Shown: positions 2,369 to 33,674 of the stretch, one piece after another | How the letters are laid out: every line of letters starts with the position of its first letter | How positions within the stretch are numbered: the first letter of the stretch is position 1 | NCBI GenBank assembly: GCA_033439255.1 | Contig: CM065890.1 | Coordinates: 62,001 to 126,000, forward strand | Direction of reading: 5' to 3' | Length of the DNA stretch: 64,000 bases | From: Hericium rajendrae | Lineage: Eukaryota > Basidiomycota > Agaricomycetes > Russulales > Hericiaceae | The notes under the pieces: generated by a model | Told to the model about the DNA's origin: nothing | The model's database searches: none | The model's input: the letters and a program-made list of their open reading frames with translations, nothing else | Made by a program: the position numbers and the translations under genes

Positions 2369-3356
2369 TCAGATCATTATGCAGACAGAGAGCAGAAACA
2401 CAAACTCTTCATCTGCACTCATATAGTCTAAGAGTGCTATTCTTCTAAGGCTACTAGCATCTGGTACCTGAGACTCAATCCCAGGTAGCCTTTTGCCCCT
2501 GGAAGAGCTAACCTCCAGAACAAGCTCCATGATACCTTCCCACTTCTTATCAGAAAGCTCATTAATGGCCTTCATATAGTGCATGCAAGCTGCACCCCAG
2601 TTACGAGAGCTGAACTTCCTATCAGGAAGATCTCTAAGATGAAGAGGAAGCTCTGGAGTAGGTAAGATCCTGAACAAAGCACGTTCAACCTACACAAAGT
2701 CAGCAACAACAATTAAAAAAATTTAGAAGAACTTACAGCCACCACAGCCAGGCAAAGAGCAGCCTTAGGCCAGCCTTTCTGCATGAAACCAGCAGGAATC
2801 TGAGAGATAGAAGAATTATGGGCATATGCAAGAGTCTTGATAATCATGGAGTTCCTGAACATGCCAGAAACACTCTGCAAAATTTATTAGCAAAAGAAAC
2901 AGAGAAAACAAAGAACATACTGAGCCTCCACCCTCCTTTAGCTCAAAGTCAAGGAAGATAAATGGATAGGATCCACTATCCTCAGCATCATCATCCTCAG
3001 CACGAGTGGGAGTCTCAGGCTCCCACTCCTGTCCAAGGTGAAAGCATGCAGCAGCAAGGATACAATTCGGCTCATGCTTCTCATGCTTCTCGAAGGTCAG
3101 ATTGGTGACCCAGTGGTCTGGCAGATAGTCGCGCACAACATGGATAGCTGTCTTACCAAAGTGCTTTTGCCAGTTGTACGTGCGCTGCAAAACCTGTCAA
3201 AGAAATGATTATCAAAAATAAGAAACAAAAGACAGCAACTCACCAGACGATAAGCACGATCCTTTTTATGATATTGATGAGGGTCATCAGGAAAGCACCT
3301 GTCATACAATTCTTGCACAAGATCAACCATCTTGGGAATGTTGAAGGGATCTGGAA

Positions 3357-3578
3357 CATCAGAAACCCTACAAACTATCTTATAAAATCTTATAAAATCT
3401 GATTGAAATCTGAAGAAACTGGTAGCAACATTCAGATTCATCAGGTAGTCAGACACCTAAGACAGGTGTTATCTGTCAGAAATAATCAGAAATAACTTAT
3501 AAGATTTCAGATTTATAAGAACAATCAGATACAATCAGATACATCAGACACAGCAGAAAGTTTGTAGGGTTTCTGATG
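3357..3578. mobile_element. A1: 222-bp MITE, family A
   Basis: It has termini CATCAGAAACCCTACAAACT and its inverted counterpart, with an AA duplication at 3355-3356 and 3579-3580. The uninterrupted version of this exon in P5 (around 51985-52005) lacks the insert and one copy of AA, which confirms both boundaries. It differs from A2 (12536-12757) by only about one base, so it is young. It interrupts the exon for the N-terminal half of the conserved domain. Confidence 0.92.
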
Positions 3579-4249
3579 AAATATGCCACACATGTCACGC
3601 CAAAGTGGAATGAAAAAATCATTCCACTGTGGCAGTGACACGGGTGCATCATCATTGGTGCTACCACGGCAGCGACTAGATGTCGACTGGCCATCAACAT
3701 CCGTCGTGCCGTCCGAAGAGTCCTACAATTAATTCAGTAACATACGAGAATGAAATAAGTAGATATGCACTGAGTCATCCTCTGTTGTGCCAGAAGGAGT
3801 ACGACTCTAACAGAACAAAAGAATATAAGCTAATAACAATAATTGACAAAATTTGATACTTTACCATGTTTCTTAGAGTCTTCGAGCCCGATGATGCATA
3901 GCACGAGGCAGAGGGAGTCTTCACAGGAGTTTTGCTTAAAGAGGAGATCTTCGCAGGAGTCTTGGGTGCAGAGGAAGACTTCGCAGGAGTCTTGGGTGCA
4001 GAGGAAGACTTCGCAGGAGTCTTGGGCACAGAGGAAGACTTTGCAGAAGTCTTGAGTGCAGATCGAGGAGGCCTAGGGGTAGTAGGGGGATCCAAAGGTG
4101 CAGTCTGCACCTCAGCGCATGGGGCAATAGCATCCTCAAACATATGAGCAATCCTTGCATGCACATTCTCCTCAGGCTCGATATCGCTGCTCTCGACTTG
4201 CTGCACAACGAGGCTCCCTTGCGCAGTGTCGACGGGGACTTCGTCATTG

Positions 4250-4736
4250 TGTAACGGATGGTTTATCAGTTACTACTATAGTCTTCTACTTTCTTACTCT
4301 TTTCTACCTGGCTTACTTTTCGAGTTTTGCAGAGTTTCCTTATTAGGATAGCTGAGTTTGAATCATGTACTTAGAGCGAATTTCCTTATTGGGAATAAGC
4401 ATCTATCTTGCCAACACACCACCATCTGTCTGCTTTTGTCTCAGTCTCTGCTTGTTCTCCTCATATCTGAAAGGTTCTCTTGGGATCCAACCCTCAAAGG
4501 AAGGTGTGTGGCCCCCAAAACCCTCATTAGGAGGTCTATATCTGCTGCTGGCCCTCAGAGGAGGTGCCAGCTCATCACTCATCTGCTTGGCTGCAGGACT
4601 GAGGCATCCTCGGTTCTGTTAGTTCTAGCTCGTGGACTCTCTCTAGGAGGTCTACGACACCTTTATACCCTCCTCACTCGCTCGCCTACCTTGGACTTCC
4701 CGGGCAGTAGCGGCTCGACCTCTATCGTCTGTTACA
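4250..4736. mobile_element. Solo LTR (LTR retrotransposon fossil)
   Basis: This 487-bp segment begins TGTAACGGATGG and ends CGTCTGTTACA, the TG...CA ends of an LTR. It is flanked by a perfect 5-bp duplication CATTG (4245-4249 and 4737-4741). No internal retrotransposon sequence is attached, so it is a solo LTR. The family cannot be set from the LTR alone; Ty3/gypsy is a guess. It sits in the acidic-repeat exon of the P1 partner gene, so it is younger than P1. Confidence 0.82.
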
Positions 4737-4741
4737 CATTG

Positions 4742-5180
4742 TCCTCGGGCTCCGTGTTGCTGCCTTCACCTTGTGCGGTATCAATGGGGATGTCCTCGTC
4801 GTCCTCGGGCTCGGTGTCACTGCCCTTGACTTGCTGCAAAATGATGGTGCCCACTGCACGGTGTCGACAGGGATGTCCTCGTCATCCTCAGGCTCGGTGT
4901 CGCTGCCCTCGTCTTGCCACGTACTGACGATGCCCCCTCGCATGGTGGGGATGTCCTCGTCGTCCTCAGGCTCGGTGTCACTGCCCTTGTCTTGCCGCAT
5001 AATGGTGATGCCCCCATGCAGGGTGTCAACGGGGATGTCCTCGTCGTCCTCGGGCTCGGTGTCGCTGCCCTTGTCTTGCCACGAAATGATGCCCCCTTGC
5101 ACGGTGTCGATGGGGACTTCTTCATCGTCCTCGGGCTCAGTGTCGCTGCCCTTGTCTTGCCGCGTAATGGTGATGCCCAC
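4742..5180 (-). repeat. Acidic TEPEDDE coding repeats of the P1 partner gene
   Basis: On the minus strand this encodes repeats built around GSDTEPEDDEDIPVDT with short variable linkers (about 75-93 bp per unit, five to six units). It continues beyond element D at 5476-5690. The opposite strand gives serine-rich frames (SSSSGSVSLP), which are shadows. The array is strongly acidic and probably disordered. The frame is lost toward the 4742 side. Confidence 0.8.
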
Positions 5181-5182
5181 TC

Positions 5183-5473
5183 CATCAGTAAATCAGCATT
5201 TGTCTGAATGGTGTCTGACTTTGTCTAATCTGATCTGATTCTGTCTGATTCTGTCTGGTCCAGATGATCAGACAATCAGACCAATTAGACGGGTCCCTAT
5301 CGTCAAGTGCCTTTCAGACATTTTTGTCTGATGTCAGACTGAAGTCTGAGTCTATCTGGGCTCTATATAATAATAATCTATATGTAATTCCATCCATATG
5401 TGGGTCAGAAGTTTAGACATTTCAGACAACTGTCAGACAGTCAGACAGTCAGACATTTCCCCTTTTCCTGATG
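5183..5473. mobile_element. D: 291-bp deletion derivative of a gamma element
   Basis: It is bounded by CATCAG and CTGATG with a TC duplication (5181-5182 and 5474-5475). Its left ~130 bp align with the partner-side end of P4/P6, including GGGTCCCTATCGTCAAGTG. Its right ~45 bp resemble the transposase-side end of P4, including the GTCTGACTGTCTGAC run. It is therefore a gamma-type element that has lost its interior, plausibly mobilised in trans. Confidence 0.85.
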
Positions 5474-7302
5474 TCGCATGGTGTCGATGGGGATGTCCTC
5501 GTCATCCTCAGGCTCGGTGTCACTCCCTTCGACTTGCTGCGTAACGTGGTCTCTCTGTGTGGTGCTGACGGGGACTTCCTCGTCGTCCTCGGGTTCGGTG
5601 TCACTACCTTCAGCTTGCGGCGGATCGGAATCTGGGCGAGCATTGTGCACACGAGCCTCCTGCTCAGTCTCCACCTCTATCATGCTAGGAGCAGGGCGGC
5701 AGGGCTGAATCACGTAGATCGAGTGAATAGAACAGTTAGTGATGTAGTATTGTACGAAAAGACTTGAAACCCACCTTAGGTGTCGTACTCTGTTTCTTGC
5801 TGGAGCTTGATCCTTTCGTGATAGTGGGAAGAGGTGGCTGCACCTGCAAGGATACATATTTACAATAGATGTTAGCATGCACACATAGGAAATAACAAAA
5901 TTACATACTTGAAGCTTCCCTGCCCCTCGAGTAGGATTACCGTGAGTTAGCTTCGTCGTCGAACGAGGGAGCGTCGAGGACTTGGAGTTGGAGGCTGACG
6001 CCTTCGACGTGCTGGACGTGCTGGCAGTTGGCACCTTCGACGTGCTAGCACCCGATACCTTGGTGATAATTTCGACGGGTGGAGGTGGAAGGACACGCTA
6101 AATCACACAAATCGTTAGCACATGGACAGGAGATACCACAAACAACGACGTACCTTCAATTTCGCAGCCCCTCGCACAGAGGCTGCTTTGAGCTCGTCAT
6201 CCTCGTCGTCCTCGAAAGCCCCCACCTCTGCATCCTTGCGTCCACGACCAGCACGTTTTGTCGAGGAAGGCTGTGTTGACTTGCCGGGGGTCGAGATCTT
6301 CGACTTGGAGCTGCCTGGCAGCGTGTCGCGCCATTCCGGCCGTATTCTGCGGGGTCTGTTGAATAGAAAATTAGTAACCGAACCCAACATGATAGAAGAG
6401 GAATCAAGATATCGAGTGAACGCAAGAGGCGAAAGATGAGGAGCACGAACGAAACGTGCAGAGCAGAAACGAATGAGGTGAGTGTTAAGGTGAGCGCCAC
6501 CAACGATCAACGAGCACTTGTACAACGAGCGCCCATCTGTCGAAAACTTGGAGGTAAACATCGCACAACTTACTCTTCGCTGAAGCTTACTCGTTTGATC
6601 AGCTTCCCCTTCCCCTTCGCATTCATCTTTGCTCTGGCCTCTTCGCTGCCCACTTCGAACCTCGTGTTATCCTCTGACCCGTCTCCTGACTCAATTCTGA
6701 CATCCGCAACATTCGTTTTTTCGAACTGGGGCCCACTTTCGTGAAGTTTGGAAGTTGACTTGCGCGAACGATCGGTGCGATTGGTGCGATCGTCTTCGAG
6801 AGGAGCTGCAGGGCATCATCAGAAGGTATGTTTATGATTCTTTCGAACTTGATGATGATTACTGATCTTGATCGGCATCCATCGCATCCTCGACTCTCGC
6901 TCCTCGTCGGCCTCGCTTGACATCACTCCCTATATCTCCCGCCTGCCTCTCGGCACCCTCATCGTCTCCCATCCCCTCGCCAACATCCAATGCGGACTTG
7001 CGCCGTTTACGACCATCCTGCAGAGTTGCAGGGCCATCCTCCCCATCTGTTTCCCCCTCTGTTCATGTGCGCTTCGGGGCCATCTTGCCCTTGGACTTGG
7101 AGGACACCGGTATCACAACTTCGGCCCGGCCTTGCGAGCTGTTGCGAGCCCGGCCTCTCTGCTGAGAGGATCTAGCTGGTGCTGTTTGATAACGGCATTA
7201 GGTGAGTGCAACATTATGATGATATATACTTATTGAACTGACCATTGGCTGCTTGTATATCACCAACATCGTTGGTGGTGTCAGCATCGGCCTCCTTCAC
7301 TG

Positions 7303-9359
7303 CATCAGCAAAGGCTAAATTTCATGAGTGATCTAACAACATGACTGGTCTGGAAAATGTCAAGTGTCTGAAATCAAATATGCATAAAACAATGAATAGA
7401 TACTTTTTTACTTCAGATATGCTCCAGATACTATCAGAATTATCAGATCACCAAATACTTTCAGATATAGCTAATTTTGTCAGAAATTTTACATTTTTTC
7501 AAAAAAATAATGTATCTCAGACCAATACTCAGAAACAATTTATCTCTCAGACATAATCATTTCAACCTCTAGTGTTCAAACAAAATCAGCGCTATTAGAC
7601 TTCAAAATTCTATCAGACATAGAGATTATTGTCAAATATTGTGTAAAATAGCAGACAAAATCATTTAGGTGTCTGTTTTTCAGACATAATCATTTAGGTG
7701 TCTGTTTTTCAGACCCAATCATTTAAATGTCTATATGTCAGATAAAATCAGAGCTATTAGACTTTCAAATTCTGCTAGACATAGCAGATATTGTGTGAAA
7801 TAGCAGACAAAATCATTTAGGTGTCTGTTTTTCAGACATGATCATTTAGATGTTTGATTTTCAGACACAATCATTTAAATGTCTATGTATCAGATAAAAT
7901 CAGAACTATCAGACTTTTAGATTCTATCAAACATAGGAATTATTATCAGATATTGTGTGAAATAGCAGACAAAATCATTTAGGTGTCTGTTTTTCAGACA
8001 TGATCATTTAGATGTTTGATTTTCAGACACAATCATTTAAATGTCTATGTATCAGATAAAATCAGGACTATCAGACATTTAGATTCTATTAAACATAAGA
8101 ATTATTATCAGATATTGTGTGAAATAGCAGACAAAATCATTTAGGTGTCTGTTTTTCAGACCCAATCATTTAAATGTTTATATGTCAGATAAAATCAGAG
8201 CTATTAGACTTTTAAATTCTGTCAAATGGCATAGAGATTTTTGTCAGATATTGTGTAAAATATTATATCTAATCATTTAAATCTTTATTCTTCAGATACA
8301 ATCAGATAGTTCAGATATTGATATCTTGCCAGATATAGTGCTTACACTCAAACATTACATAAAAAGTCAGACTAGTTTCAAATCTCAGATATAATCAGGT
8401 AGACCTTCTTTGTTTAGACAAAATTAGAGGTATTTCAAACTTTATACATATATCAAAATTCTTGAAATCTGTCAAACATTTTATCAACAGTTACAAAGTC
8501 ATCAGAAACCCTTACAACTTTCTGATGCATCTGATTTCAATCTGATTGATCTGATTTTTGAAGAAATAGATATTTGAGAGTTGAAATATAAACAGTTACA
8601 ATATTTCATTCTTTATATATATAATACATAGCTCAGAAGTCCTTTAAAACATTTTTCAGATTAATCAGATTGAAATCAGATTGAATCAGACAGAATCAGA
8701 TGCATCAGAAAGTTGTAAGGGTTCCTGATGAAGGTATTTTTTTTTAAACAAAGTCAAGCAGATATTCATTATTTAGACAGTGTCAAACATATCAGAAGTG
8801 TGAACATTTATTAGAACTACTCAATCAAATTAGACTGGAAAAACATTTCAGCAAAGAGATAAGTTTCAGATGTGATCAGATGACTCATAATTATTTAGAC
8901 CATTCAGAATGTTTACAAGTATCAGATCTTTATCACAAGTCAGACTTTTGGAAAAGACTCAGAAATAATAACATTCTCAGACAGAATCTTTATTATTTAG
9001 GCTTTATTAGGTCAATCAGATTTTATGAAATTTGTCAGATTTTTATGTCAATATCAGACATCAGATAAGTGTCAGAAGACTAAAATACATCAGACATTGT
9101 CAGAAAAGTCCTAATTTTCAGAACAAAGTCAGACATTTCAGATATAAACTTAGATATGTTGAGACACAAAGATTTTAAAAATTTAATTCTATTATTGGCT
9201 GTAGTTGTTCCATAGCAAAACAAGATAAAACTTTACTGTTATAGATCTAATACTACTAAAACATTCATCTTTTTATCACTGCTGACTTAGTATATATATA
9301 CAAATAACTATAGCACTTACCTGTTATCACACAGCATATTAAAATATCCAAATACTCAA
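7303..9359. repeat. P2 transposase-side subterminal region
   Basis: This is a gene-free stretch of beta-type subterminal repeats. TTTAGGTGTCTGTTTTTCAG and variants recur between about 7660 and 8160, linked by AGATATTGTGTGAAATAGCA-type words. The whole region aligns with 28973-30534 of P3, which lacks MITE C. Small frames here are repeat translations. Confidence 0.82.
8499..8731. mobile_element. C: ~231-bp MITE, family C
   Basis: It has termini TCATCAGAAACCCTTACAAC and its inverted counterpart. The duplication AG (8497-8498 and 8732-8733) is supported by the uninterrupted P3 sequence near 29900-29915. Internal words (GATTGAAATCAGATTGAATC) extend the inverted repeat, and the centre is AT-rich. 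The ends resemble family A but carry an extra T. Only one copy is seen. Confidence 0.87.
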
Positions 9360-12348
9360 TCAGAAGGCTATTTCATTGGCATGATGATCAGAGAACTTGT
9401 TTACATAGTATGTATAGAAGGCATCTAAGGAATAAGTATATTCAAAGTCAAAAGGAAGAAACTCTTCTCCAAAAACAGGCATCAAGTGAGCTCCTCGCAA
9501 AATTGTGTCAACATGAATTACTGAACGAATATTCTTGCCATCTTCATCAACTTCTCGCTCTACAACCCACATTTTAGTATTAGGATCTGGCTGATCTCCA
9601 ATGGGAATAAACCACTCTATATATGCACAAGGATATATGACAGTGTTATGTTTGAATGAAAAAAAACATCAGAACTCGTCCCACATAAAGTCCTTGCATT
9701 CCTGGCAACTCTGGATTATTTTCAACAAAAACACAATCTCGACGTGCAGGTCCATGTCTCCACTCAGGTGTAGATCGAATACGATGACGATGCATATTTG
9801 TAAGCCCTGATAAATCACTTGGAGAATGATACACAGCAATTGCAGAGTGAAAAATATCAATTGTGTATGGTGCACGAGGAAGTTGAGACTCTTTAACATT
9901 TGCTGATGAATGATCAGGATGAAGTTGTTCATATAAAAACCATTGAATCATCTTTGACAGCTCAGGATACTCCAAATAAGTTTCAAGCTTATAAAGCTGT
10001 CGAGGATATTTGGATGCTCATGTTTTGGCTAGGGAAACACTTGCCATATACTCTGGCACATTATGAGCAGGTGCTCCATCCACATGATGTTTTGTAGCTC
10101 TCCTAGTATCCTCATTATTCTCATCTTCATCATCAAATTCAATCTCATCTTCAAAGTCTGAATCAGATTTAGAATCATCAGAATCTGAGTCAAATTTGAC
10201 CTCAACAAGATCTAGGGGCAAATCAAGCATGCCACGAGCAACAAAGTCATTTTTGGCTGCAGCCAATTTATCAAGTCTCTGATTTGTGAGCAGCATCTGA
10301 CCCAGTGCATTAAATCTACTAGAGCGTCGCCATGGCTCTTTTACAGCTTTGATGTGTTTGGCCTCAGTTATAGATGTGCAAAGTCCATTTGGCACACCAA
10401 ACAGCTGAATAAGTTCAATATAATGCATCAGAGCATGCTGTTTTGGCAGAGAAAATCCTTTGCGAACTTCAACATCTTTGAAAATAACTCGCTCTTTATG
10501 AAATTCTTCAAGTGCAGCTTCCATAGCATTTAATGTAGTCTCATCAATAACAGACCTTCGTGCAAGGTAGCAGAACTCCATAAATGCAGCAAGAGCTCGG
10601 ACCATCTGATCTGGAACATGCCCTTGAATTGCAGGCAGCCACACTTTCATTAAAGCTTTAGAGTCATCACCAGTCCACTGCTGAAAACCACGTCCATCAG
10701 GAAATCGACGCAACTCTGGAAATGAAGGAGCAGCAGCAACCCTCCTATCAATATCTGCCATAATTTCAGTAGCACGACCTGGTCCATGTTCTTTGATCAA
10801 ATAGTCTTCAACCCAAGCCACTAAATGATCTTTGAAAACACCTTTGATCACTTGATGCAAAAGATCAAATACAATAAGCTCATGAATATCAGCTCGAGGA
10901 AAATAATATGTGAATGGCTAAAAAATAAAATTAGAACAAGTCTTTTTGTTTTGGTTGACAGAACTTACCATAATATTAGGAACTATGCCATAGTCATCCC
11001 ACAGTTTTCCTGCCTTAGTACCCTTATTTATCAAGGATTCTGTATGTGTATGACTTCGGGTTTCTCCACCATTATCTAGATCATTTGGTCGAGCCAAGCA
11101 TTTTGGACACTGTTTTGAAACAATACATGATATCAATACTTGTTCTGGATAATCTCCAATATAAGGTCCAAGACCATAGACTGCACGACGAAGATGTCCA
11201 TCAGGACAGCGAACAATCTCTGGAGTAGTCATGCCAGGACGCAAATGTTCAAGAATTGTACGCAAAGACTGATGTATCAAATGTCTACGAAATCTACAAA
11301 AAGCTGCCTGATTTTGAAATTTTCTATCTATCTTTCCAAGAGACAAGAATCCTAAGATGCTCACAGCATTTCGATGGGCTCGACAAACATTATTATGCAC
11401 ATTTCCAGGTGACATATATAGTGGCCAAAATTCAGTATGTCCCATAGCAACAGAAACAGTAGTCTTGTCACTGCCCAAGATTACTGACACAAACATAGCT
11501 CCTTTATTTGTTGGATCTTCAGCCACAATTGTATCAGCCTGCTTCCATGACCAATCTCCAGTCATAAAGTCTGTCCACTGTCGTTCACTATTTTCTTTGA
11601 ACTCTTGTCTTGGAGCATAGTCAAATTCTCCAGCAAAGTCAGGATTTTTTAGCTGGTTATGTATAAGTGTGCGTGGATTGCGATACCAGACTTCAAATTC
11701 TTTTGACATCCATGCAGGTGGTTTTTTAGGTAGCTTGCCATTGTATTTTACTGAAAAACACAGCCATTCAGCATCTCCATGCTTAATTGAATCAAGCACT
11801 GCATGAAGATCATCTTTATTTGCATATGGATATGCTTTGGTTGTTTTTGCCCAGAGTCCCATAAGACGATTGAATTTTTTCTCAGAAACTGGCATCTCTC
11901 GAAATAGCAAATCTGCAGCCTCAAATTCAACTCGATTTCGAAATGGAGACCAATCATTTGAATCAGGAATATCCTTTGGATGTGGAGCTGCACCATCATC
12001 AAGATAATTTCCAGTATTATCACAAGGTCTCCCATTTAGATTTGGATGCATCATATTTTTTGTGCCAGGCTGTGCATTTGAACTCTCTGCATCATTATCA
12101 TGTTCACCATAATGTGGATCAGCATCAAACATATTTGGCTGCTCATATTGTGGTGATTTTGGATCAGTTGGAGCTGTAGGTGGATGGTAAGGTCCCTCTG
12201 CAGATCTATGCAAGTCAGGATGTATTGCATCTATATGCTGTCTCAAGCCTCTAGCACTGATAAAGCCACGTCGACATCTAGTACCCACAGGCTGTGGACA
12301 TATATATGTACAGCATTTATATGATTTTTGATCTGAAGGAGGTGCCAT
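9360..12348 (-). pseudogene. P2 Plavaka transposase, two exons, inactivated
   Basis: Exon 1 is 12348-10969, the intron 10968-10918 (GTAAGT...TAG), exon 2 10917-9360. The start is taken at MAPP, aligned in all copies. Visible parts: a C2H2 finger (C-x7-C then H-x4-H, residues ~15-45), the HPNLNGRPCD motif, FRNRVEFEAADLLFRE, DFMTGDWSWKQAD, ILGSDKT, GNVHNNVCRAHRNAV, RPGMTTPEIV, a CPKC cysteine pair, QWTGDDSKALMKV, SITEAKHIKAVKEPWRRSS, an acidic D/E/S block, and a C-terminal segment ending NKFSDHHANEIAF. The acidic residues of GSDKT, IGDYPEQ and SITEAK are candidate catalytic positions (inference). An in-frame TGA at 10020-10018 replaces the CGA of P3, and one extra A in a run near 9659-9666 shifts the frame, so it is dead as read. 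Confidence 0.9.
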
Positions 12349-13307
12349 TGGTATAGCCAATAATATAGAACAGTTATGCAACTCCAAGTATATTTTTTGT
12401 AGTCAGAGACTGCTCTGCTAAACACACAGCTGTCAAATATCCTAGAATGACAGAATTATGATGCAGTGTAGATCTCAGAGTCTAGCCCAATAGCTCAGAT
12501 GCACAGTATTTCAGGTTACAACTGACTATGCAGTGCATCAGAAACCCTACAAACTATCTTATAAAATCTTATAAAATCTGATTGAAATCTGAAGAAACTG
12601 GTAGCAACATTCAGATTCATCAGGTAGTCAGACACCTAAGACAGGTGTCATCTGTCAGAAATAATCAGAAATAACTTATAAGATTTCAGATTTATAAGAA
12701 CAATCAGATACAATCAGATACATCAGACACAGCAGAAAGTTTGTAGGGTTTCTGATGTGTGAAGTTCTCAGTCTGCAAAGGGCTTCGTAAAAATGCACAA
12801 GAATATATCAAAGACCAAGTGCGTGTGATGTATAGTCAAAGACCAAGTGTGCAATAATATATCCCAAGACTAATTGCATAGGCACATGCAAACAGACCGA
12901 GTATGCGTGAGTATATCTGTGCGTGATATGTCAAAGACCAGGTGCAGGGAGAAGTGTACAAGTCGTAGTTGCCAAAGCTCAAGGTGGGTCCCGAAACAAG
13001 ACAGACTAGATATGGAGAAGCCTCAAGGTGTAAAGAAATGCAGGCAAAATAGATGTTGGTTGGGCAGAGAAAGGACTAGTTGGGATAGCCATAGCACGAG
13101 CAAGAACACTGAAGTCCAAGAGAGCAAAAGCCTTGATGAAACGTGCAAGGCAAAATGTCACGTGGTACAAGTGAGATGCAGCGGCAGCACAAGCGAGACG
13201 GGTTGTTGCTTGCCACCTAGTTCACTCCGCTGTCCTGCTAAGTCCACTCCATTGACCTCGTAGGACTCCTTTGTCTTGCTATTCTCTCTTTCGTTGTTCC
13301 TGCAGAC
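12349..13307. promoter_or_regulatory. P2 central bidirectional promoter region
   Basis: This is the gap between the divergent start codons of the P2 transposase and partner gene. It holds MITE A2 and three copies of a CAAAGACCAAGTG-like word near 12809, 12837 and 12931. No convincing TATA box could be fixed for either gene. Promoter function is inferred from the divergent layout, which is the same in P1, P3, P4 and P6. Confidence 0.5.
12536..12757. mobile_element. A2: 222-bp MITE, family A
   Basis: It has the same termini and length as A1, with about one base difference. The duplication is TG (12534-12535 and 12758-12759). It sits upstream of the P2 transposase start, in the shared promoter region, where it could affect expression of either gene. 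Confidence 0.9.
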
Positions 13308-16300
13308 ATGCCACCAAAACCTCGTCGGCTGACTTCACAACAGGAGAAACAAGGTACTCACCAAGGATCTTCCAATGCCACGGTGGACAATGGGAAGAAG
13401 AGACGGTGGACTACCGAGGAGCAAATGGCCGACAAAGCTGCCCAGAAGGCCGCGGAGACAGCAGTGCATGCTCGCAAGAAACAGCGTGCGTGCGAGGAGC
13501 ACAATTCGGAGCCAGACATGTCGACACGGTCCCTAGTCAACGTTGATGACGAGGACCAACCTGCAGACACAGGTAAGTGACTTTATCGAACCTAAAATGT
13601 ACATATACTCACTACTGAATTAAACACACAGTGGTGTCTTCCAAGTCCAGCGCGAGAAGTCGTGGGCCTGCTCGAACAAACCCCGAGGTTGTGATCAGCA
13701 CCTCATCTCAAACTTCAAAGGCAAAACGCATACGTACGGAAGTCGAGACCGAGGCAGAAGATGCCCCGCAGGAAGAAGGCCGTAAACAGCACAAGTCAAC
13801 TGAAGGAAATGTGCTTGAGGGCGAAGCTGCTGTGCCCAAAGGCGGGCGTGGTCATCCAGCTCGACAGTCGGATACCACGGATGGAGGAAAGGCGACGAAA
13901 CAAGGAGGTGCGATGGAGGAAGGAGATGCGACGCTGCTCGAGCAAGATAACGGTAAGTTTCAAATCATTCACAAGATAGAATAGTACGACTCACCTTATG
14001 TGACAGAACTTATATGCACCCCTGTGCGTGGCTGTTCTAAGGCTGCACGACTAGATACCCAGCTGCTCGAGAACGAGCAGGGTCAAGATCAGGAAGGTGA
14101 GACAGATTTGTTCCATCGCCCAGAATGAACACTCAAACTCACCTTGTTGACAGAATCCCGACCCTCCCGCAAGTCCGATCGAGGCGATCGACCTGCTACG
14201 CATGCCCACTTGAAGGCTCGACAATCGGAGATGATGCTGCGTGAGAACGAACAGTGTCAAGTTGATGGTCAGTCCAAGCTTGCCTCATCGCTAAGAATCA
14301 GGACTAAAACTCACTTTATTGACAGTATCCGGCCCCTCTCGCAAGTCTGATCACCGAAAAGAGCTCCAAGGTCGTGAAGACTTGAAGAAAGGCAAGCAGA
14401 GAGAGACGAACGAGTCAGTTCGTGACACAGACGCCAAGTTTGAAGGCGCGGGGGCGATTGAGTATGACCAGGAAGAAGCAGATGATGGTAATGTCGGAGA
14501 TAGCGAACGTGACGCGCAAGAGGGGGGCAGAATGTCAGAAACGGGCAAGACGAAGGCGAAACGAGTGAGTTTCAAGGATGGAGGAGCGTCAGACAAAAGG
14601 TAAGTTTTCCTTATCGATTGCGAGCGCCTGTGCTGCCAGAACGAGCGCCCACATCAGGAACCCTTTCAGTCTTCTTAGTGACCTTGTTGGTCTGGTTTGG
14701 GTCTGGTGGATCTGGTTTTTGTCTGGTTTGTCTGGTTTTCATCTGAATTGATAGAAAACCAGACAAACCAGATGAAAACCAGACAAACCAGACAAAAACC
14801 AGATTCACCAGATCCAAACCAGACCAACAAGGTCACTAAGAAGACTGAAAGGGTTCCTGATGCATGTCAGAACGAGCGCCCGTATCTGTTGGTTCACGGG
14901 CATGCCTTGCGCACACGTCTTGCACGTCTTATCTCACACTGAGCCCATCTCTGTCTACTTTGACTGTATTCTTTTGTCCTATGCTTACAACTTTACCTTC
15001 AAGATCTCGCGGTATTTGTCCCGATTGGCAGTCCAAACTGCCTGGGGCCTCGAAGACCTCAACCTCCATCACACCTCGACGTTCCGGCAATCCGAAAACG
15101 ATTTCCAGCATGCGTTCTGGCCAAGCGAAACCCGGAGGTCGTAAGAACATCGAGCAGCAAGAGTTGGCCGATGATTCGGAGGGTGAGGATGACACGTTGG
15201 AAGTGATGTTGATAGGAGCCGAGCCGCGATTGAAGGTACGTCGTTGTTTTTTTTCTCTTGTGATGTCTTCTAACGAGTTTTCTTTCTGTCCATCTTCGGT
15301 CACTCTTGTCGCCATAGATCCAGGACAATGTGCAGATTATTCACAAGATAACTCAAGCCCCCGATTCATCCAGCAAGACAAAGGTATGTTGTAACTCTTG
15401 CAATTTTGAATGTTTCGTGTGCTAACTTCTCATTGTCTCATTCCTCGTATACCGCACTTTCTTATAGGTTCAAACTCCATCCCAAAGTGTTCAAGCCTCA
15501 AACTCTTCAAGTGGATCCTCTCGGAAGCTACAGGTATGTTGTATCTCGCATTTTCAGACGTTTCGTGTGCTAACTATCTAATCATCTCATCCTTCGTGTC
15601 CCGCACCTCTTACAGGCCAAGCCCCCCTCCGAAGCCATTTAGGCCTCAAAGTCTTCGGGGGAGTCCTCTCAGAAACCCCAGGTACGTGTTCTGCCTTTCC
15701 ACTTTGTTTCATTCGTGCTTCATCCGCTAACGCTAACTCCTTCCATTACACGCGTCGTATTTTGCATGTTCTGCAGGTGAAACCCTCGTCATAGAAGTCC
15801 AAGGTATGTAGTGTGGTTGTTCTTTTTGTTATGTTCTTTGCTGGCTAATAGTTTGTTATTCCAGAAATCCCCCGCAACACTTGTAAAGAAGCAGGAGACG
15901 ATGTCGAACAAGGCGTTTGGGAAACAGGTACATTGTATCTATTTGCCATTGTAACAACATTCTGACTAGCTACTTCTATATAGAAGGCCTTCCCTATTTC
16001 CTCGTCTACCCCCACCACGCCTACCCCCGAGCCAAGCACCAGCAAGGTGGACCATGATGACATGCTTACAGAGGCCGGTGCCCCTGCAGACTCAGACTGG
16101 GACAGCCCGGATACGAGCACGGCGAAGGCGGAAAAGTATCTCAAGTCTGGTGCGAAGGCCATCACAGAACCCGCGAGCGATGAGGATGCCAGCGCAACCG
16201 AGCCCGATGTCGACCTGGAATGGCAAGTCGTGCCAGTTGGTCCCGACGGAAGTGTTCTCAAGTTCGAGTCGGACCCAGAGGAACAAGATGTGCACGATGG

Positions 16301-17811
16301 TGAGGACATAGAGCCAGAGCTGGAAGGCCAAGGTGATGAGGATGGCGAGGAGGGTAGCCAGACCGAATCCGATGTCGAGTGGGATACATATGTTCAACAG
16401 GGCATGCAAGGTGTTCAAGGTGAGCAAGACAGGCAAGATGTGCAAGACGAGGAGGACGACGGGGATGCCAGCAAGGCCGAATCTGATATTGAGGCCGAAG
16501 ACATACCTGCAACACCGGCCTCTATTAACAAGATACCATCACGCACCATGTCAATCTCCAGGACTCCATCAAGCTCCAAGGCACTGTCTGGTGCCCGTAC
16601 GCCAGGCAAAGTGGTATACGTTTTTATCTTTCATCATTTATTATTACTGACTTGTATTCTTTTGTTATTGCAGAGCCGTACTCCATCTGCCGCAACCGTG
16701 CATAATTATTTACTATATTCTTGTGTGATACTAACTTCTCTTAATCTTAAGGATGCTTCGGAGATTTCAACATCCAGTCGCAGTCGTGTCACTGCCAGCA
16801 ACGATGATGCGCCCGTGGATTTGGACCAGTGGAAGACCTGGTTCATTCCATTGTGGCGCGATATGCTCGGCACCTTTCCTGATCCCTTCGACTCTGATCA
16901 TGTGGTTGCTGACATCCAAGGTCTCTATGATCAGTGCTTTCCTAGCACCCCCCATGACTTTTCTGTGAAGGGGGACCTTGCTTTCCTTTTGGTAAGTCTT
17001 ATCATTTGTCATTTTCTTTCGATAATTATTTTCTGCAGGTTAAGCAGCGCACTTATGACTGGAGGAAGCCATTTGCTCCTATCACTGAGCTGGTTGTTGG
17101 CAAGTACCTGCCAAAGCACGAGATCACTTTGAAGACATTCAAGAGGGGTGAGAGGCATGAGCAGGACCGTATACTTGCTTGTGTCCGCTTTCACCTTGGT
17201 CGGAAGCCTGAGTGCCGCACAAGGGCTGATCAGGATGAAGCCACTAATACTGGAACATATCCCTTCATTTTTGAGACCTTCAAGAAGGTTGATGGTGCAG
17301 CCCCAGTATGTTCTTTCTTGTTTCTATTTCTTTTATTGACAAGTTTTGTAGGTTCATTCTGGTATGTTTAGAAACTCTATGATCATCAAAACTCTTGCCT
17401 TTGCCCATCTGGTTCCTATCTCCCATCTTCCTGCTGCCTCTAGGACAAATAAGTGGCCTAAGGCTGCTCTCTGCCTGGCTGTAGTTGCTGTGAGTACTTT
17501 TGATTTTTGTTGTTGTTGTTGCTAACTTTGTGCAGGTCGAGCATGCCTTGTTCAACCTCTTGCCTCCAGAGGAAGCTCCTCAAAGCATTATTGAGGATCA
17601 GAGGTTCAGCTCTAGCAATTGGGGAGCTGCTTCTCGCCACTACATGAAGGCGATTGATGCTCTTTCTGATCAGAAGTGGGAGTTGATCATGGAGTTGGCT
17701 GAGACAGCCTGTGCTTCCAAGCGTAAGAAGCATCCTCAGACTGAGTCTGGTGTTTTGGATGCAGGTGCTCGTTGCCGGACAGGACTTGTGGATTATTTGT
17801 CTGATGATTAA
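13308..17811 (+). CDS. P2 partner protein (basic N-terminus, acidic repeats, DUF6532-like C-terminus), many exons
   Basis: Exons that could be fixed: 13308-13572, 13632-13952, 14007-14096, 14154-14267, 14326-14599 and 15004-15235; then a run of micro-exons to about 15930; about 15984-16614; a short SRTPSA exon near 16677; about 16752-16991; 17039-17307; about 17352-17490; and about 17537-17811. Modules: KKRRWTTEEQMA (start), RTNPEVVIST, repeated LLE.E/D.. exons, KRVSFKD, CPDWQSKLPG, an acidic D/E block (16050-16500), then the conserved domain (LDQWKTWFIPLWRDML, RTYDWRKPF, MFRNSMIIKTLAFAH, FSSSNWGAASRHYMK). There is no signal peptide or membrane segment; a nuclear location is inferred. No inactivating change was noticed, but not every junction was checked. 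It diverges from the transposase. The DUF6532 match is from memory; the function is unknown. Confidence 0.72.
14652..14862. mobile_element. B1: 211-bp hairpin MITE, family B
   Basis: The ends are CATCAGGAACCCTTTCAGTC and the inverted match, with a CA duplication (14650-14651 and 14863-14864). The two arms of about 94 bp are complementary with about two mismatches, so nearly the whole element folds into one hairpin. It lies in the intron between the KRVSFKD and CPDWQSK exons of the P2 partner gene, so splicing may remove it. Confidence 0.93.
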
Positions 17812-19182
17812 GAGTTTGTATTTCTTTTCTCTTCTTGCATAATAATCTGACTTCATTTTTTAGAGCTTGAATGATATCCATATAGTTTGTGTTTTGTTCT
17901 TTTAACTTTGAGTCTGCTCTGATTTAATTTCAAATAGAATCTGACTTGTCTACATTTGTCTGAGTTTGTACTTTGTCTGATTTTTCTCTGAGCTGACTTC
18001 TAACTTTGATCTTTTTCTTATGAACAGGATTTGATGCCTCTGAATTTTGTTTGAGTATGTCTGATCTTGTCTGATATTGGTCTGAGCTGACTTCTCATCT
18101 AGTTTTCCTCTCCTAATACATCTCATGTTTTAATGACTTTTAATGCTTTACATTTACTGTCAAATCCCTTTCACCTATGGCCTACCTTTTTGGGTTTATG
18201 CTGTATTGGGTGTTTTAGTCGTTTTACCTGCTTAATTTCAGAATGCAGTGGTTCTGATAATTTGGTGTGATTCTGAGTATCTGAATACTGGCTGGAAGGT
18301 CTAGTTGTAAGCTAAAAGCTCTGCTAATTATTCTGAAAATACAACTGAGTTGTTTTGACTTAAGTCTGAACTAGACTGACTTATATCTTGCAGAAGATGA
18401 AATATATTTGAATTGGCTCTGATGAGTCTGACATAGTCTGAAATTTATCTTATAAAATTTTAAGATGCCTAAATGAGTCTGATACCATTAGAATTTTAAC
18501 TTATAACACTCAAGAATATCTTATTGATCTCATAATACTTCAACCAAGGCAAATATCAATATAGACTCTACTTCAAAATTAGCTCTAATGAGTCTGAGAT
18601 ATTCTGTAAACTTTTGAAATGTCTGAATTAACTCTAATGGATCTAATTTTTCAACTTGAAAGACTCTGAAATGTCTAACTAATCTGATAGCATTTTACTT
18701 GAGTCAAATATCAACATAGACTTTAACCTTGACAAGTCAAAAATGCTAAAACTTGTTTGTATAACAGTAAAATTTTATCAAAGTGACTGACATTAGATTA
18801 AATTCTGACAATCAGACCAAACTCTGATATCAAACCAAATTCTGACATTAGACTAATAAATCTGATGTCAGACATTTTCTGATTGTTAGATAATTTCTGA
18901 CATCATCAGAAAATCTCTAACTATTAGATAGTTTCTGACTGTCAGACAATTTCTGACTATCAGAGATTGTCTAATGCTATCAGAATTTATCTGACATCAG
19001 ACTCTTGATCTGAGAGTCAGACTTTGATCTGATAACAGATCATTTTTTCTAATATGATCTGATGTGATCTGAAAAACAGCACCCTAAATGACAGTCCTGA
19101 TAGAAATCAGACAAAATCAGATAAAATTAGACTATTTTTAGACCATTTTCAGACCAATCAGGAAATTTGAGGTTTACTGATG
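17812..19182. repeat. P2 partner-side subterminal region
   Basis: There is no gene. An A/T-rich 3' flank is followed by dense TCTGA/CAGAC words and ends GGTTTACTGATG. From about 18780 to 19080, alternating phrases such as TCTGACATTAGAC and TCTGACTATCAGA form many short interleaved inverted repeats. Confidence 0.8.
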
Positions 19183-19611
19183 CACCTTCTGTGTCCTCAG
19201 GTATCTCAACCTCCTCCTGACGACGTCTAGGTGTCTTTCGACCCTTGGACTTTGTCGTCGAAGTGTCTGGTTCGCATACATAATCGAATAGTTGAGTAAG
19301 CTAATACACAAAGACTAGTGCATGTGCTCACCTTCTGTGTCCATAGGTATCTCAGCATCAGTGGGACCATTGTCAACGTCACCACGTCGACGTTTCGATC
19401 CGGCAGGCTGCGACTGGGAGGTCTCACACGCACTCTGTGACTTACGAGTAAGTACAGCCGCGTCGTGGGCTGCTTTCTCCGTAGCTTCATCGGCCATCTG
19501 CTCTTCAGCAGTACGCCGTCTCTTCTTTCTATACTCTGCAAAAGTCGGACAGTCTCGGTGAGTGTTCTTATCATTTCCTTGAGCCGTTGACTTACGAATC
19601 TTGGGTGGCAT
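19183..19611 (-). pseudogene. P1 partner gene, 5' exons
   Basis: The start codon is at 19611 (MPPKIRKS). Exon 1 encodes a basic KKRRRTAEEQMADEA motif and SKRRRGD and ends near 19334 at GAAG/GTGAGC. The next exon (~19254-19183, KSKGRKTPRRRQEEV) is cut by P2. Across P2, the sequence below 7302 reads AVKEADADTTND. The upstream frame (MTSLVPLV...) is not conserved in other copies, so the MPPK start is preferred. The gene diverges from the P1 transposase at 20415. Confidence 0.75.
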
Positions 19612-20414
19612 TGATGCAGTAGACAAGAGCAAGGAGGTAAAGCGAGGGAATAGAAACGGTATCAGGACACCAGCGAGGACAAGCAAGACAAGTGGAACGA
19701 GACTTGTCATCTCACCACAACACAGCTCTCACGTGAGTCCTCGGCTCTCACCTCCAGCGCTGCCTCTCCGTCTTCGTGAGCCACACAAGCATTGCCTTCA
19801 ATATATTCTACCTCTGCCATCTTGCATCTCATCAATATCATCTTCATGTTATCCTCTGGACCTTGTATTCTTGATATCAATCCCCTTCACTCTTGTGCCT
19901 GCCCTCTTGCTCTGTTTCTGTTCTTTCGCGTGTTTGCTGCCTTGTTATTTGTCCATTTCTCATTCTGAGTCTCCTCAAGCCACAGCCTTCAACCGATATC
20001 ACTTGCTAGCACTTGCGCGTCTCTACGTGTTGCTCATACACTCTAGTCTGTTCTGTTTTGGGTTGACATTATCTTCCTGCCCGCTTCACAATCCTTGGTG
20101 TAGGACAAATTCCCACTTTGAACCTTGCATTACACTTGTGTGCTACGTGATCTTTGGTGACCCTGTGTCTTGATATCTCTCGAGTCTGCACACTGCTCAT
20201 TAGCTCTCCAAGTCTTTTGGCTCTGTGTTAGACCTTTGCACATATCATATACTTTCTGCAAAAATTGTGCAGCTTCAAGCTTAATTGATTTTTGATTTTT
20301 ACTGCTTTGTGACTTGAAACACTGTGGCATTATTCTGTGCATTTGGGCTACATCTAAAGAAACATCTTTCAGTGATAACTATATTTAAAGACAGTGATCT
20401 CATTGGTTGCACAG
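19612..20414. promoter_or_regulatory. P1 central bidirectional promoter region
   Basis: This ~800-bp gap lies between the divergent starts of the P1 partner gene and transposase and is CT-rich on the plus strand. No tandem array like that of P4/P6 and no clear TATA box was seen. Promoter function is inferred from position only. Confidence 0.45.
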
Positions 20415-20761
20415 ATGGCACCTCTGAGACGAAAACTCTATAAACCTCACACATATTTCTGTCCAAAACCTATGGGTTCTAGGTGTCGAAATGGATTTAT
20501 AAGTGCTGGTGGCTTGGCTCGGCATATAGATGCAGTACATCCAGACTTGCACAGAGACGAAATTTTGGCAGAGTCTTATCTTCCAGCTTTAGCTCCACCT
20601 TGAGCTTCAACTCATGCGCCATCTCCAGAACAGCCAGATATATTTTATGCTGATCCACATTATGGTGAAAGCAATAATGGAGAAAATTTAGAGGCACAAC
20701 ATGGTACTAAAAATATAGTGCATCCAGATCTGAATGGAAGACCATGTGATAATGCTGACAA

Positions 20762-20972
20762 CATCAGGAACCCTTTCAGTCTTCTTAGTGACCTTGTTGG
20801 TCTGGTTTGGGTCTGGTGGATCTGGTTTGGGTCTGGTTTGTCTGGTTTTCATCTGAATTGATAGAAAACCAGACAAACCAGATGAAAACCAGACAAACCA
20901 GACAAAAACCAGATTCACCAGATCCAAACCAGACCAACAAGGTCACTAAGAAGACTGAAAGGGTTCCTGATG
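20762..20972. mobile_element. B2: 211-bp hairpin MITE, family B
   Basis: It has the same ends and hairpin as B1, with an AA duplication (20760-20761 and 20973-20974). The uninterrupted codons are visible in P2 near 12000-12010. It sits in exon 1 of the P1 transposase, between the RPCD and NYLDD motifs. Confidence 0.93.
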
Positions 20973-21717
20973 AATTATCTTGATGATGATGCAGCTCCAC
21001 AGCCAGAGAATATTTCTGATTCAAATGACTGGTCTCCATTTTGAAATCGAGTTGAGTTTGAGGCTGCAGATTTATTATTTCGAGAGATGCCAGTTTCTGA
21101 GAAAAAATTTAATCATCTTATGGGACTCTGGGCAAAGACAACTAATGCAAATCCATATGCAAATAAAGATGACCTTCATGCAGTACTTGACTCAATTAAA
21201 CATGGAGATGCTGAATGGCTATGTTTCTCAGTAAAATATAAGGGCAAGCGACCTAGAGATTCACCTCCATGGATGTCAAAAGAATTTGAAGTTTGGTATA
21301 GAAATCCACGCACAGTTCTGCATAACCAGCTAAAAAATCCTGACTTTGCTGGAGAATTTGATTATGCTCCAAGACAAGACTTTAAAGAAAATGATGAACG
21401 ACAATGGACAGACTTTATGACTGGAGATTGGTCATGGAATCAGGCTGATACAATTGTGGCTGAAGATCCAGCAAATAAAGGAGCTATGTTAGTGCCAGTA
21501 ATCTTAGGTAGTGACAAGACTGTTGCTTCTGTTGCTACAGGACATACTGAATTCTGGCCACTATATATATCACCTAGAAATGTGCATAATAATGTTCGTC
21601 GAGCTCATCGAAATGCTGTAAGCATCTTAGGATTCTTGTCTTTAGGACAAACAGATAGACAATATCAAAATAGTGCACCTTTTCGTAAATTTCGTAGGCA
21701 TTTGATACAACAATCTT

Positions 21718-21928
21718 CATCAGGAACCCTTTCAGTCTTCTTAGTGACCTTGTTGGTCTGGTTTGGATCTGGTGAATCTGGTTTTTGTCTGGTTTGTCTG
21801 GTTTTCATCTGGTTTGTCTGGTTTTCTATCAATTCAGATGAAAACCAGACAAACCAGACAAAAACCAGATCCACCAGATCCAAACCAGACCAACAAGGTC
21901 ACTAAGAAGACTGAAAGGGTTCCTGATG
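21718..21928. mobile_element. B3: 211-bp hairpin MITE, family B, opposite orientation
   Basis: It has a TT duplication (21716-21717 and 21929-21930). Its loop is the reverse complement of the loop in B1, B2 and B5. The uninterrupted site is readable in P6 near 62676-62700. It lies in exon 1 of the P1 transposase, upstream of the TTPEIV motif. Confidence 0.93.
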
Positions 21929-22219
21929 TTTACACACAATTCTTGAGCATTTGCATCCTAGTATGACTACTCCAGAAATTGTTCGCTGTCCTGATGGACA
22001 TCTTCATCGTGCAATTTATAGTCTTGGACCTTATATTGGAGATTATCCAGAACAAGTATTGATATCATGTATTGTTTCAAAATGATGTCCAAAATGCTTG
22101 GCTCAACCAAAAGATCTAGATAGTGGTGGAGAGACTCGAAGTCACACACATACAGAATCTTTGATAAATAAAGGTACTAAGAAAGGAATACTATGGGATG
22201 ACTATGGTATAGTTCCTGA

Positions 22220-22441
22220 CATCAGAAACCCTACAAACTTTCTGCTGTGTCTGATGTATCTGATTGTATCTGATTGTTCTTATAAATCTGAAATCTTATA
22301 AGTTATTTCTGATTATTTCTGACAGATGACACCTGTCTTAGGTGTCTGACTACCTGATGAATCTGAATGTTGCTACCAGTTTCTTCAGATTTCAATCAGA
22401 TTTTATAAGATTTTATAAGATAGTTTGTAGGGTTTCTGATG
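22220..22441. mobile_element. A3: 222-bp MITE, family A, opposite orientation
   Basis: It is the reverse orientation of A1/A2, with a GA duplication (22218-22219 and 22442-22443). The uninterrupted version is seen in P6 near 62971-62984. It inserted nine bases before the 3' end of exon 1 of the P1 transposase and leaves the GTGAGT donor intact. Confidence 0.92.
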
Positions 22442-24068
22442 GATATTATGGTGAGTTTTATGAACTATAACAAAAATTTGACTTGTTCTAATTCTATCTT
22501 CTTAGCCATTCACATATTATTTTCCTCAGGCTGATATTCATGAGCTTATCATATTTGACCTTTTGCACCAAGTGATCAAAGGTGTTTTCAAAGATCACAT
22601 AGTGGCTTGGGTTGAAGATGATCTAATCAAAGAACATGGACCAAGTCATGCTACTACAATTATGGCAGATATTGATAGGAGAATTGCTGCTGCTCCTTCA
22701 TTTCCAGAGTTGCGTCGATTTCCTGATGGACGTAATTTTCAACAGTGGACTGGTGATGACTCTAAAGCTTTAATGAAAGTGTGGCTGCCTGCCATTCAAG
22801 GACATGTTCCAGATCAGATGATTCGAGCTCTTGCTGCATTTTTGGAGTTTTGCTACCTTGCACGAAGATCTGTTATTGATGAGACCACACTAAATGCTAT
22901 GGAAGCTGCACTTGAAGAATTTCATAAAGAACGAGTCATCTTTAAGGATGTTGAAGTTCGTGAAGGATTTTCTCTGCCTAAACAGCATGCTTTGATGCAT
23001 TATGTTGAACTTATTCGGCTGTTTGGTGTGCCAAATGGTCTTTGTACATCTATAACTGAGGCCAAACATATCAAAGCTGTAAAAGAACCATGGCGACATT
23101 CTAGTCAATTTGATGCACTTAGTCAAATGCTGCTCACAAATCAGAGGCTTGATAAATTGGCTGCAGCTAAAAATGACTTTATTGCTCGTGGTATGCTTGA
23201 TTTGCCTTTGGATGCTGTTGATATCAAATATGATTCTGACTCAAATGACTCTAAATCTGAATCCTCATCAGACTCTGAAGATGAGATTGAATTTGATGAT
23301 GAAGATGAAGATAAGGAGAACACTGCAAGGGCCACTAAACATTATATAGATGGAGCACCAGCTCATAATGTGCCAGAGTATATGGCAAGTGTTTCTCTAG
23401 CCAAAACATGAGCATCCAACTATCCTCGACAACTTCATCTGCTTGAGACTTATCTTGATTATCCTGAGTTATCTGAGATGATTCAGCAATTTTTATATGA
23501 TCAACTTCATCCTGATCATTCATCTGCAGTTGTAGATGAGTCTAAACTGCCTCGTGCTCCATACAAAGTTGATATATTTCACTCTGCCATTGCTGTATAT
23601 CGTTCTCCTAGTGATTTATCAGGGCTCACAAATATGCACTGTCATCGTATTCGCTCTACACCTGAATGGAGACATGGACCTGCACGTCGAGATTGTGTAT
23701 TTGTTGAAAATGATTCAGAGTTGCCAGGAATGCAAGGACTTTATGTGGGACAAGTTCTGATGTTTTTTTCATTTGTGCACAATACAGTCACATATCCTTG
23801 TGCATATATAGAGTGGTTTATTACTGTTGGAGATGTACCAGATCCTAATACTAAAATGTGGGTTGTAGAGCGAGAAGTTGATGAAGATGGAAAGAATGTT
23901 CGCTCAGTGATTCATACTGACACAATTTTACGAGGAGCTCACTTGATGCCTATTTTTGGAGAAGAGTTTCTTCCTTCTGACTTTGAATATACTTATTCTT
24001 TAGATGCCTTTTATACATACTATGTAAACAAGTTCTCTGATCATCATGCCAACGAAATAGCCTTCTAA

Positions 24069-33500: not shown

Positions 33501-33674
33501 GTGGATCAGCATCAAACATATTTGGCTGCTCATGTTGTGGTGAATTTGGATCAGTTGGAGCTGCAGGTGGATGATAAGGTCCCTCTGCAGGTCTATGCAA
33601 GTTAGGATGTATTGCATCTATATGCTGTCTCAAGCCTCTAGCACTGATAAAGCCACGCCGACATCTGGTACCCA
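30535..33674 (-). pseudogene. P3 Plavaka transposase, main body (split by P4 and B4)
   Basis: Exon 2 is 32091-30535, the intron 32142-32092, and exon 1 runs from 32143 up to 33674, broken by B4 (33105-33315). It is then cut by P4 and resumes at 44747-44809. Unlike P1 and P2 it has CGA, not TGA, at the codon near 31192, and a shorter A-run near 30833-30840, so exon 2 is fully open to NKFSDHHANEIAF. It has all family motifs: FRNRV, DFMTGDWSWKQAD, ILGSDKT, HNNVRRAHRNAV, TTPEIVRCPDGHLRR, CPKCL, SITEAKHIKAVKEPWRRSS. One oddity is QQRTGDD where other copies have QQWTGDD. It is inactivated by insertion only, as far as can be seen. Confidence 0.92.
33105..33315. mobile_element. B4: 211-bp hairpin MITE, family B, in P3 transposase
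   Basis: It has an AA duplication (33103-33104 and 33316-33317). The uninterrupted sequence is visible in P2 at about 11925-11940. It has the same loop orientation as B3. It lies within the FRNRV/EFE motif of exon 1. A long frame that starts inside it (hydrophobic VWFVWFSS) is MITE translation, not protein. Confidence 0.93.

Follow-up and report, generated by a model that had tools for sequence, protein, structure and literature searches.

In CACTA/EnSpm transposons, the accessory protein TNPA is made together with the transposase TNPD from one gene by alternative splicing, and the VANDAL elements that encode VANC proteins are Mutator-like. Plavaka, another group of DNA transposons, was reportedly first described by Iyer et al. 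in 2014. CACTA elements combine a conserved transposase with dissimilar DNA-binding partners that act on subterminal repeats, according to PMC2613891. Plavaka elements are common in some mushroom genomes, with 28 families reported over three homokaryons of Agaricus bisporus (PMC7473861). Those of the PlavakaB type are defined by CATCA..TGATG termini and target-site duplications (TSDs) of 2-3 bp (Kojima 2025, PMC12730594). Here we describe a PlavakaB element that carries a second, conserved gene, in a 64 kb stretch of Hericium rajendrae (contig CM065890.1, positions 62,001 to 126,000), hereafter the window. The window is of fungal type, with spliced genes, short introns, and Plavaka and copia elements. 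Self-comparison and reading of the sequence resolve it as a nest of PlavakaB-type DNA transposons, comprising six elements (E1, EA, E2, E3, E4 and E5) and one further end at 1-865.

A two-gene PlavakaB unit

The initial annotation singled out positions 7303-19182 of the window, which coincide exactly with the two termini of one element, EA (+ strand), complete between both and located inside the E1 partner gene. In EA, a transposase gene (~9366..12348, - strand) and a partner gene (13308..17811, + strand) diverge from a shared centre, and E1, E2, E3 and E5 have the same arrangement. The partner is present in all six elements and both genes are seen in five, the transposase side of E4 lying beyond the window. 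Three elements have both ends in view: EA, E1 (1147..25059, - strand) and E3 (33675..44746, + strand, 11,072 bp). All three enclose both genes between a transposase-side terminus CATCAGCAAA and a partner-side terminus CATCAGTAAA (in EA, CATCAGCAAA ... TTTACTGATG), and all three have the CATCA..TGATG ends of PlavakaB. Two are flanked by 2-bp TSDs, AA for E1 and CA for E3, of a length that fits the definition. No 2-bp duplication is visible at the flanks of EA (TG at 7303 and CA at 19182), where it is either absent or decayed; across the EA insertion site, E1 keeps an unbroken reading frame. Because in E1 and E3 the partner lies between termini flanked by TSDs, it is mobilised together with the transposase. 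The PlavakaB element thus has two genes that move as one unit and, nested inserts apart, measures roughly 10-12 kb.

The transposase is of the PF18759 family. In Pfam searches the main exon pieces of EA and E2 match at E=1.9e-106 and E=1.1e-107, and the first 374 aa of the E3 protein at E=2.3e-72 (244 bits); in E1 only the last 36 residues match (E=1.4e-12). Between the second D and the last E, translations read by eye contain CPKC and HALMH, corresponding to the CxxC and H(3-4)H motifs of PlavakaB. The ratio of non-synonymous to synonymous substitution rates (dN/dS) is 0.19-0.42. A single stop interrupts the frame of the EA gene, in exon 3; E1, whose transposase (20415-24068, + strand) contains in-frame stops, has one at this codon too. 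The E3 gene (34969..38018, - strand) has a single in-frame TGA, and E5, at a different site, carries the same one. Since both insertions share this TGA, at least one of them was probably mobilised in trans, unless the stop is tolerated. The resemblance to the PlavakaB elements of Kojima 2025 (PMC12730594) extends to the PF18759 transposase, the termini, the 2-bp TSDs and the CxxC and H(3)H motifs. They differ in the accessory gene, which in the relevant passages of that article is TET/JBP, with no DUF6532-like partner named.

A simple script that takes account of splice sites gave the partner exon models; in every copy the choice of middle exons is uncertain, and two parameter sets differ in it. 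In EA, the N-terminal modules lie at 13308-15235, the acidic and S/T-P-K modules at 15984-16613 and the C-terminal domain at 16752-17811. The E3 partner (39419..43543, + strand) has 13 predicted exons encoding 1018 aa without an in-frame stop, its C-terminal domain exons lying at 42499-43543. In the intron-rich middle, where exon models are predictions, TAG codons are seen by eye in the frame of EA and E2. A KKRRRTTEE-type block occurs in the four N-termini that have the exon (E1, EA, E2 and E3). It is followed by an EVVI block, modelled in E3, EA, E2 and E4 and found by eye in the E1 DNA near 7081-7140, which the model skips. Next comes K[RK]VSF, in five of five aligned rows (E5 was omitted as a near-copy of E3), and then, in order, P[DNE]W, acidic repeats, the S/T-P-K block and the C-terminal domain. 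Only 17 of the 517 columns of the N-terminal alignment are invariant, K-x-V-S-F among them. This site, kept in place in every row, corresponds to RVxF, the docking motif of protein phosphatase 1. AlphaFold models of contiguous stretches of E4 and E3 (two exons with the 45-base intron read through) have a mean predicted local distance difference test score of 41.9. This last partner intron is open in frame in both E3 (43211-43255) and E4 (51328-51372); as it is 45 bases long, its retention would give an in-frame insert of 15 residues.

The C-terminal domain is open in all six copies (E2 is cut by E4, and E1 was read without its miniature inverted-repeat transposable element, MITE). Its sole Pfam match at E<=1, found in four of the five distinct copies over overlapping domain parts, is DUF6532 (PF20149): 18.0 bits (E=0.0029) for EA, 17.4 bits (E=0.0042) for E4, 16.3 bits (E=0.0096) for E1 and 13 bits (E=0.099) for E2, where the domain is truncated. 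Every score is under the gathering cut-off of 24 bits, and the E3 domain has no PF20149 match at E<=1. A distant relationship with DUF6532 is therefore probable but not established. A PDB sequence search returned a single match (E=0.47), taken as chance, and no relatives of the transposase or of the partner domain were found in viral and prokaryotic contigs, collections that are uninformative for fungi. PMC8955403 lists PF20149 and PF18759 among domains reported from two Ganoderma species and otherwise from parasitic and symbiotic fungi. The parts of the Plavaka literature examined do not mention a DUF6532-like partner. They report TET/JBP genes (PMC12730594) and, in Amoebidium, Plavaka-flanked gene clusters with tyrosine recombinases (PMC11244446).

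Selection on this domain is purifying. Within subfamilies, the ratio is 0.084 for EA-E2 (dS 0.267, dN 0.023) and 0.231 for E4-E1 (dS 0.243, dN 0.056). Between subfamilies, at 36-56% identity, it is 0.34-0.54, with dS (0.97-1.36, and 0.93-1.42 from pairwise alignments) near saturation. The sub-threshold match and the unassigned function would fit a passenger, e.g. a host gene that was captured and does nothing for the element. We consider this highly improbable, because the partner occurs in six of six elements of diverged subfamilies with its C-domain frame and modules kept and with low dN/dS. Our comparison thus bears out the initial annotation in its divergent transposase and many-exon partner, in the module order, whose blocks recur in the aligned copies across subfamilies, in the joint mobility of the genes and in the purifying selection it proposed to check. 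Its assignment of the C-terminal domain to DUF6532 is weaker than anticipated.

Subterminal repeats and the proposed function of the partner

Both ends of EA are dense in TCAGA motifs that begin with the terminus itself and point inwards. The transposase-side array (7303..9365, + strand) has 60 inward against 5 outward and the partner-side array (17812..19182, + strand) 36 against 12, each with 1 CpG. Reading inward from the terminus, TCAGA exceeds TCTGA at ten of ten ends, a count that includes E5: 31-60 against 2-6 at the five transposase-side ends and 23-43 against 12-16 at the five partner-side ends, where shuffled totals average 1.7-3.8.

We propose, with a probability of roughly one half, that the element encodes the partner as an accessory protein of the nucleus, where it would act on the DNA of the element itself, in a role like that of TNPA in CACTA. 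With TNPA and VANC as models, such an action would be the most economical function, and both the position of the partner inside the two termini of all three complete elements and the dense inward TCAGA arrays favour it. The conserved DUF6532-like domain would most likely work with the transposase at the common ends, on the oriented arrays. The long, probably disordered N-terminal arm, with its basic blocks resembling nuclear localisation signals, its acidic repeats, its S/T-P-K repeats and its invariant RVxF-like site, would tune the element's expression or chromatin state, and evolve as a separate cassette. The K[RK]VSF site could dock protein phosphatase 1.

The CACTA system resembles the present one in its CMC-type transposase, its subterminal repeat arrays and a second protein far less conserved than the transposase. 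The two systems differ in termini and TSD, and instead of being a splice product of the transposase gene the partner is encoded by its own gene, on the other strand. The likeness to TNPA is one of proposed role. Several observations weigh against our proposal. The transposase has a putative C2H2 finger of its own (PF00096, E=0.22, below the cut-off) and could bind the ends alone. Pfam searches at E<=1 returned no match for the full E3 partner or the EA N-terminus, and thus revealed no known DNA-binding domain. All subfamilies have the same subterminal motif despite the divergence of the C-terminal domain, and we saw no co-divergence of partner and motif. A separate point concerns the TNPA model: the ends are nearly free of CpG, so that demethylation of subterminal repeats in its manner would have little to act on. 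The initial annotation had cast the partner as a helper or anti-silencing factor acting on these repeats. The oriented repeats at all ten ends agree with this, but their near-lack of CpG (0-4 per end) does not, and the CpG-rich interior would be a more plausible target for an anti-silencing factor.

CpG content and divergence within the element

The distribution of CpG differs sharply between parts of the element. The 0-4 CpG per end compare with shuffled means of 20-41 (eight ends), and the eight MITEs counted in the window have none. Observed-to-expected ratios (o/e) are 0.00-0.14 in the ends, 0.35-0.44 in the transposase and 0.24-0.60 in the C-domains, against 0.80-1.21 in the N-terminal and middle parts of the partner (E3, EA, E2 and E4); the copia element has 0.55. 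Synonymous codons give the same picture: NCG codons are 0 of 415 in the E3 and E2 transposases, where third-position G in GTN/CTN/GGN is 43 of 308, and 128 of 426 in the partner N-terminus. The exon 3 piece of the EA transposase has an NCG share of 0.03 of 111. Across codon boundaries, 0-1 CpG are observed in transposase parts where 8.5-16.8 are expected, compared with 33-39 (30-43 expected) in the partner N-terminus, 20-56 (24-64) in its middle and 3-11 (20-25) in the C-domain. The transposase still uses CGN codons for arginine (share 0.53-0.81), which is what a loss of mainly synonymous CpG predicts. All nine substitutions between E3 and its near-copy E5 are CpG to TpG or CpA (five on E3, four on E5), in sequence with 8.5% of bases in CpG. 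By eye, their contexts show no TCG preference (TCG 3, ACG 3, GCG 2, CCG 1). In Agaricomycotina, hypermutation was not detected, and CG methylation in A. bisporus is nearly restricted to transposons, as stated in Kojima 2025 (PMC12730594). The changes fit ordinary deamination of methylated CpG.

These patterns make anti-silencing a serious rival to the helper function, since the diverged N-terminal half of the partner keeps normal CpG, the ends, MITEs and transposase are depleted, and the E3-E5 changes are all at CpG. The partner would then be a VANC-like factor that keeps CpG methylation away from the interior of the element, namely from the partner's own 5' part and, in E3, from the promoter, and so allows expression. 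The E3-E5 substitutions indicate that copies are undergoing CpG deamination, and in its CpG-rich, fast-changing interior the partner recalls VANC systems: VANC proteins, as described in PMC5735166, join conserved domains to variable regions that contain arrays of tandem peptides, and their exon structures are diverse, just as the partner joins a conserved domain to a hypervariable region with tandem peptide repeats and changing exon structure. This likeness is one of sequence architecture; the transposase here is Plavaka and not Mutator-like, and the repeat-rich ends are CpG-free. Furthermore, the centres of EA and E1 are CpG-poor (o/e 0.45 and 0.47, compared with 0.94 in E3 and 0.65 in E2), a GC-rich 5' gene half that is unmethylated for ordinary reasons would look alike, and Pfam revealed no enzymatic domain in the partner. 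We therefore regard this explanation as possible, though clearly less probable than a TNPA-like role.

Divergence is as uneven as CpG. In both close pairs, EA-E2 and E1-E4, the compared parts of a shell made of ends, transposase and partner C-domain are 83-98% identical, whereas the N-terminal half of the partner is near saturation, introns included. For EA-E2, identity is 0.915 in the transposase-side end, 0.93-0.98 in the transposase, 0.917 in the C-domain and 0.827 in the acidic/STPK exon. It falls to 0.651 in the P[D]W exon, 0.613 in N1, 0.534 in N2-5 and 0.479 in the intron-rich middle. At the centre, 0.462 compares with a mean of 0.42 and a maximum of 0.457 over five shuffles, and the first 180 bases are at chance level (162 of 1000 shuffles reach it). 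For E1-E4, where the comparison covers the partner and the partner-side end (centres and transposases are not comparable), the values are 0.83 for the end, 0.912 for the C-domain, 0.734 for the middle and 0.50-0.60 for the N-terminal parts.

The argument rests on introns, taken as near-neutral DNA and aligned with strict gap costs and splice sites excluded, because N-terminal dS comes from poor alignments (31-54% amino-acid identity). In EA-E2, identity is 41/42 in the transposase intron and 101/111 in C-domain introns but 120/213 in four N introns; in E1-E4, it is 100/111 in C-domain introns and 156/270 in three N introns. The N introns were paired by their order in the models, a pairing that is uncertain for E1. 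Only 0 and 1 of 1000 shuffles reach their identity, which marks them as homologous, if old. From one subfamily to another the C-domain introns fade as well, to 0.75 identity in EA-E4 and 0.55 in EA-E3, the latter no better than shuffles, while transposase introns retain 0.85 in EA-E1 and 0.69 in EA-E3. Close relatives thus have the C-domain introns and exons in common, together with the ends.

Parts of one element appear to be of different age, and recombination between lineages would be the simplest cause. The old region is the same in both close pairs, a pattern that rests on two pairs. We rejected relaxed amino-acid constraint as the cause, given that introns show the same contrast, and CpG hypermutability, as 139 of the 521 EA-E2 differences in N2-5 are CpG-linked. 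C-domain dS is about 2-4 times transposase dS across pairs; a constant, higher rate of synonymous change in the partner may explain this excess but fails for the gradient within the gene.

Such a diverged core, having few close copies, might passively escape homology-dependent methylation, leaving the protein a modest, regulatory role. In EA-E2, near-identical regions are CpG-poor and diverged ones CpG-rich (29 windows, Spearman -0.46, p=0.013), MITEs lack CpG, and the duplicated core of E3 and E5 is accumulating CpG changes. However, such changes are visible only in CpG-containing sequence, the correlation has no direction and its windows are non-independent, and the EA centre is diverged yet CpG-poor. 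We find this explanation improbable, less so than a passenger gene.

A combination of these ideas would distinguish two layers. A homogenised shell would be CpG-methylated by the host and eroded, while a hypervariable core (the N-terminal arm and the intergenic centre), CpG-rich in its coding part, would serve as an identity cassette that lets lineages escape homology-dependent methylation and anti-silence their own copies, the DUF6532-like domain linking core to shell. We offer it as a speculative model, rather unlikely as a whole. What is new here is the diverged N-terminal half of the partner next to a similar shell, its normal CpG next to depleted ends, MITEs and transposase, and the all-CpG changes between E3 and E5.

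The E3 centre contains 9-10 tandem copies of a ~60-bp unit with a 33-bp dyad (GGGGCACGAATATCGTGCCCC core) at 38447..39046 (+ strand; E5 counterpart 60568-61167). This dyad repeat was not found in the centres of EA, E2 and E1. Across ten E3 copies, 87.9% of the cells of 14 named pairs match. Changes on both sides affect 6 pairs (reached by 23 of 500 shuffles) and 10 cells (4 of 500); further pair types are not above shuffles (344 of 500). Dyad symmetry kept despite unit divergence is suggestive only, because the units share ancestry and their consensus served to draw the structure.

The nest of elements and its significance

The remaining elements are stacked into one another. E1 sits in a copia element (PF07727 and PF25597 in Pfam) and is interrupted by EA, which splits its partner (19611-19183 and 7302-2406, - strand). 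By eye, the E1 partner carries two more insertions, at 5184-5475 and 4247-4740, one with a CATCAGTAAA-type end, the other with a different kind of end, of the TGTAACGGATGG..TCTGTTACA type. The visible part of E2 (28973..49854, + strand) is interrupted by E3, which splits its transposase (44809-44749 and 33674-30535, - strand), and by E4, which cuts its partner (45735-49854, + strand). E4 (49855..54865, - strand), represented by its partner gene and partner-side end, is itself cut by E5 (54866..64000, - strand), an inverted near-identical copy of E3 that extends past the window edge. The two copies differ by nine substitutions and two indels across the 9.1 kb in view (35614-44746 against 54866-64000). 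The seventh PlavakaB element, at 1-865, shows its transposase-side end only and lies, by eye, in the same copia element as E1.

A terminal-repeat scan found 11 short CATCA..TGATG pairs. Eight are MITEs with 2-bp TSDs, in two families of 222 and 211 bp with CATCAG ends: 3357-3578, 12536-12757, 14652-14862 (in an intron of the EA partner), 20762-20972, 21718-21928, 22220-22441, 33105-33315 and 45151-45361. Both families are probably mobilised by PlavakaB transposases. A MITE-like insertion at 8500-8730 (CATCAGAAACCCTT / CATCAGGAACCCTT ends), in the transposase-side end of EA, is absent from the same place in E2; the parse of the scan gave no 2-bp duplication for it. The pairs 1344-1549 and 18904-19182, inside subterminal arrays, are probably due to chance.

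The control of Plavaka elements is little understood, and the conserved second gene is a concrete candidate for it. The partner would also give the uncharacterised DUF6532-like domain a context. Finally, the pattern of core and shell makes the conflict between transposons and methylation in fungi accessible from sequence and bisulfite data.
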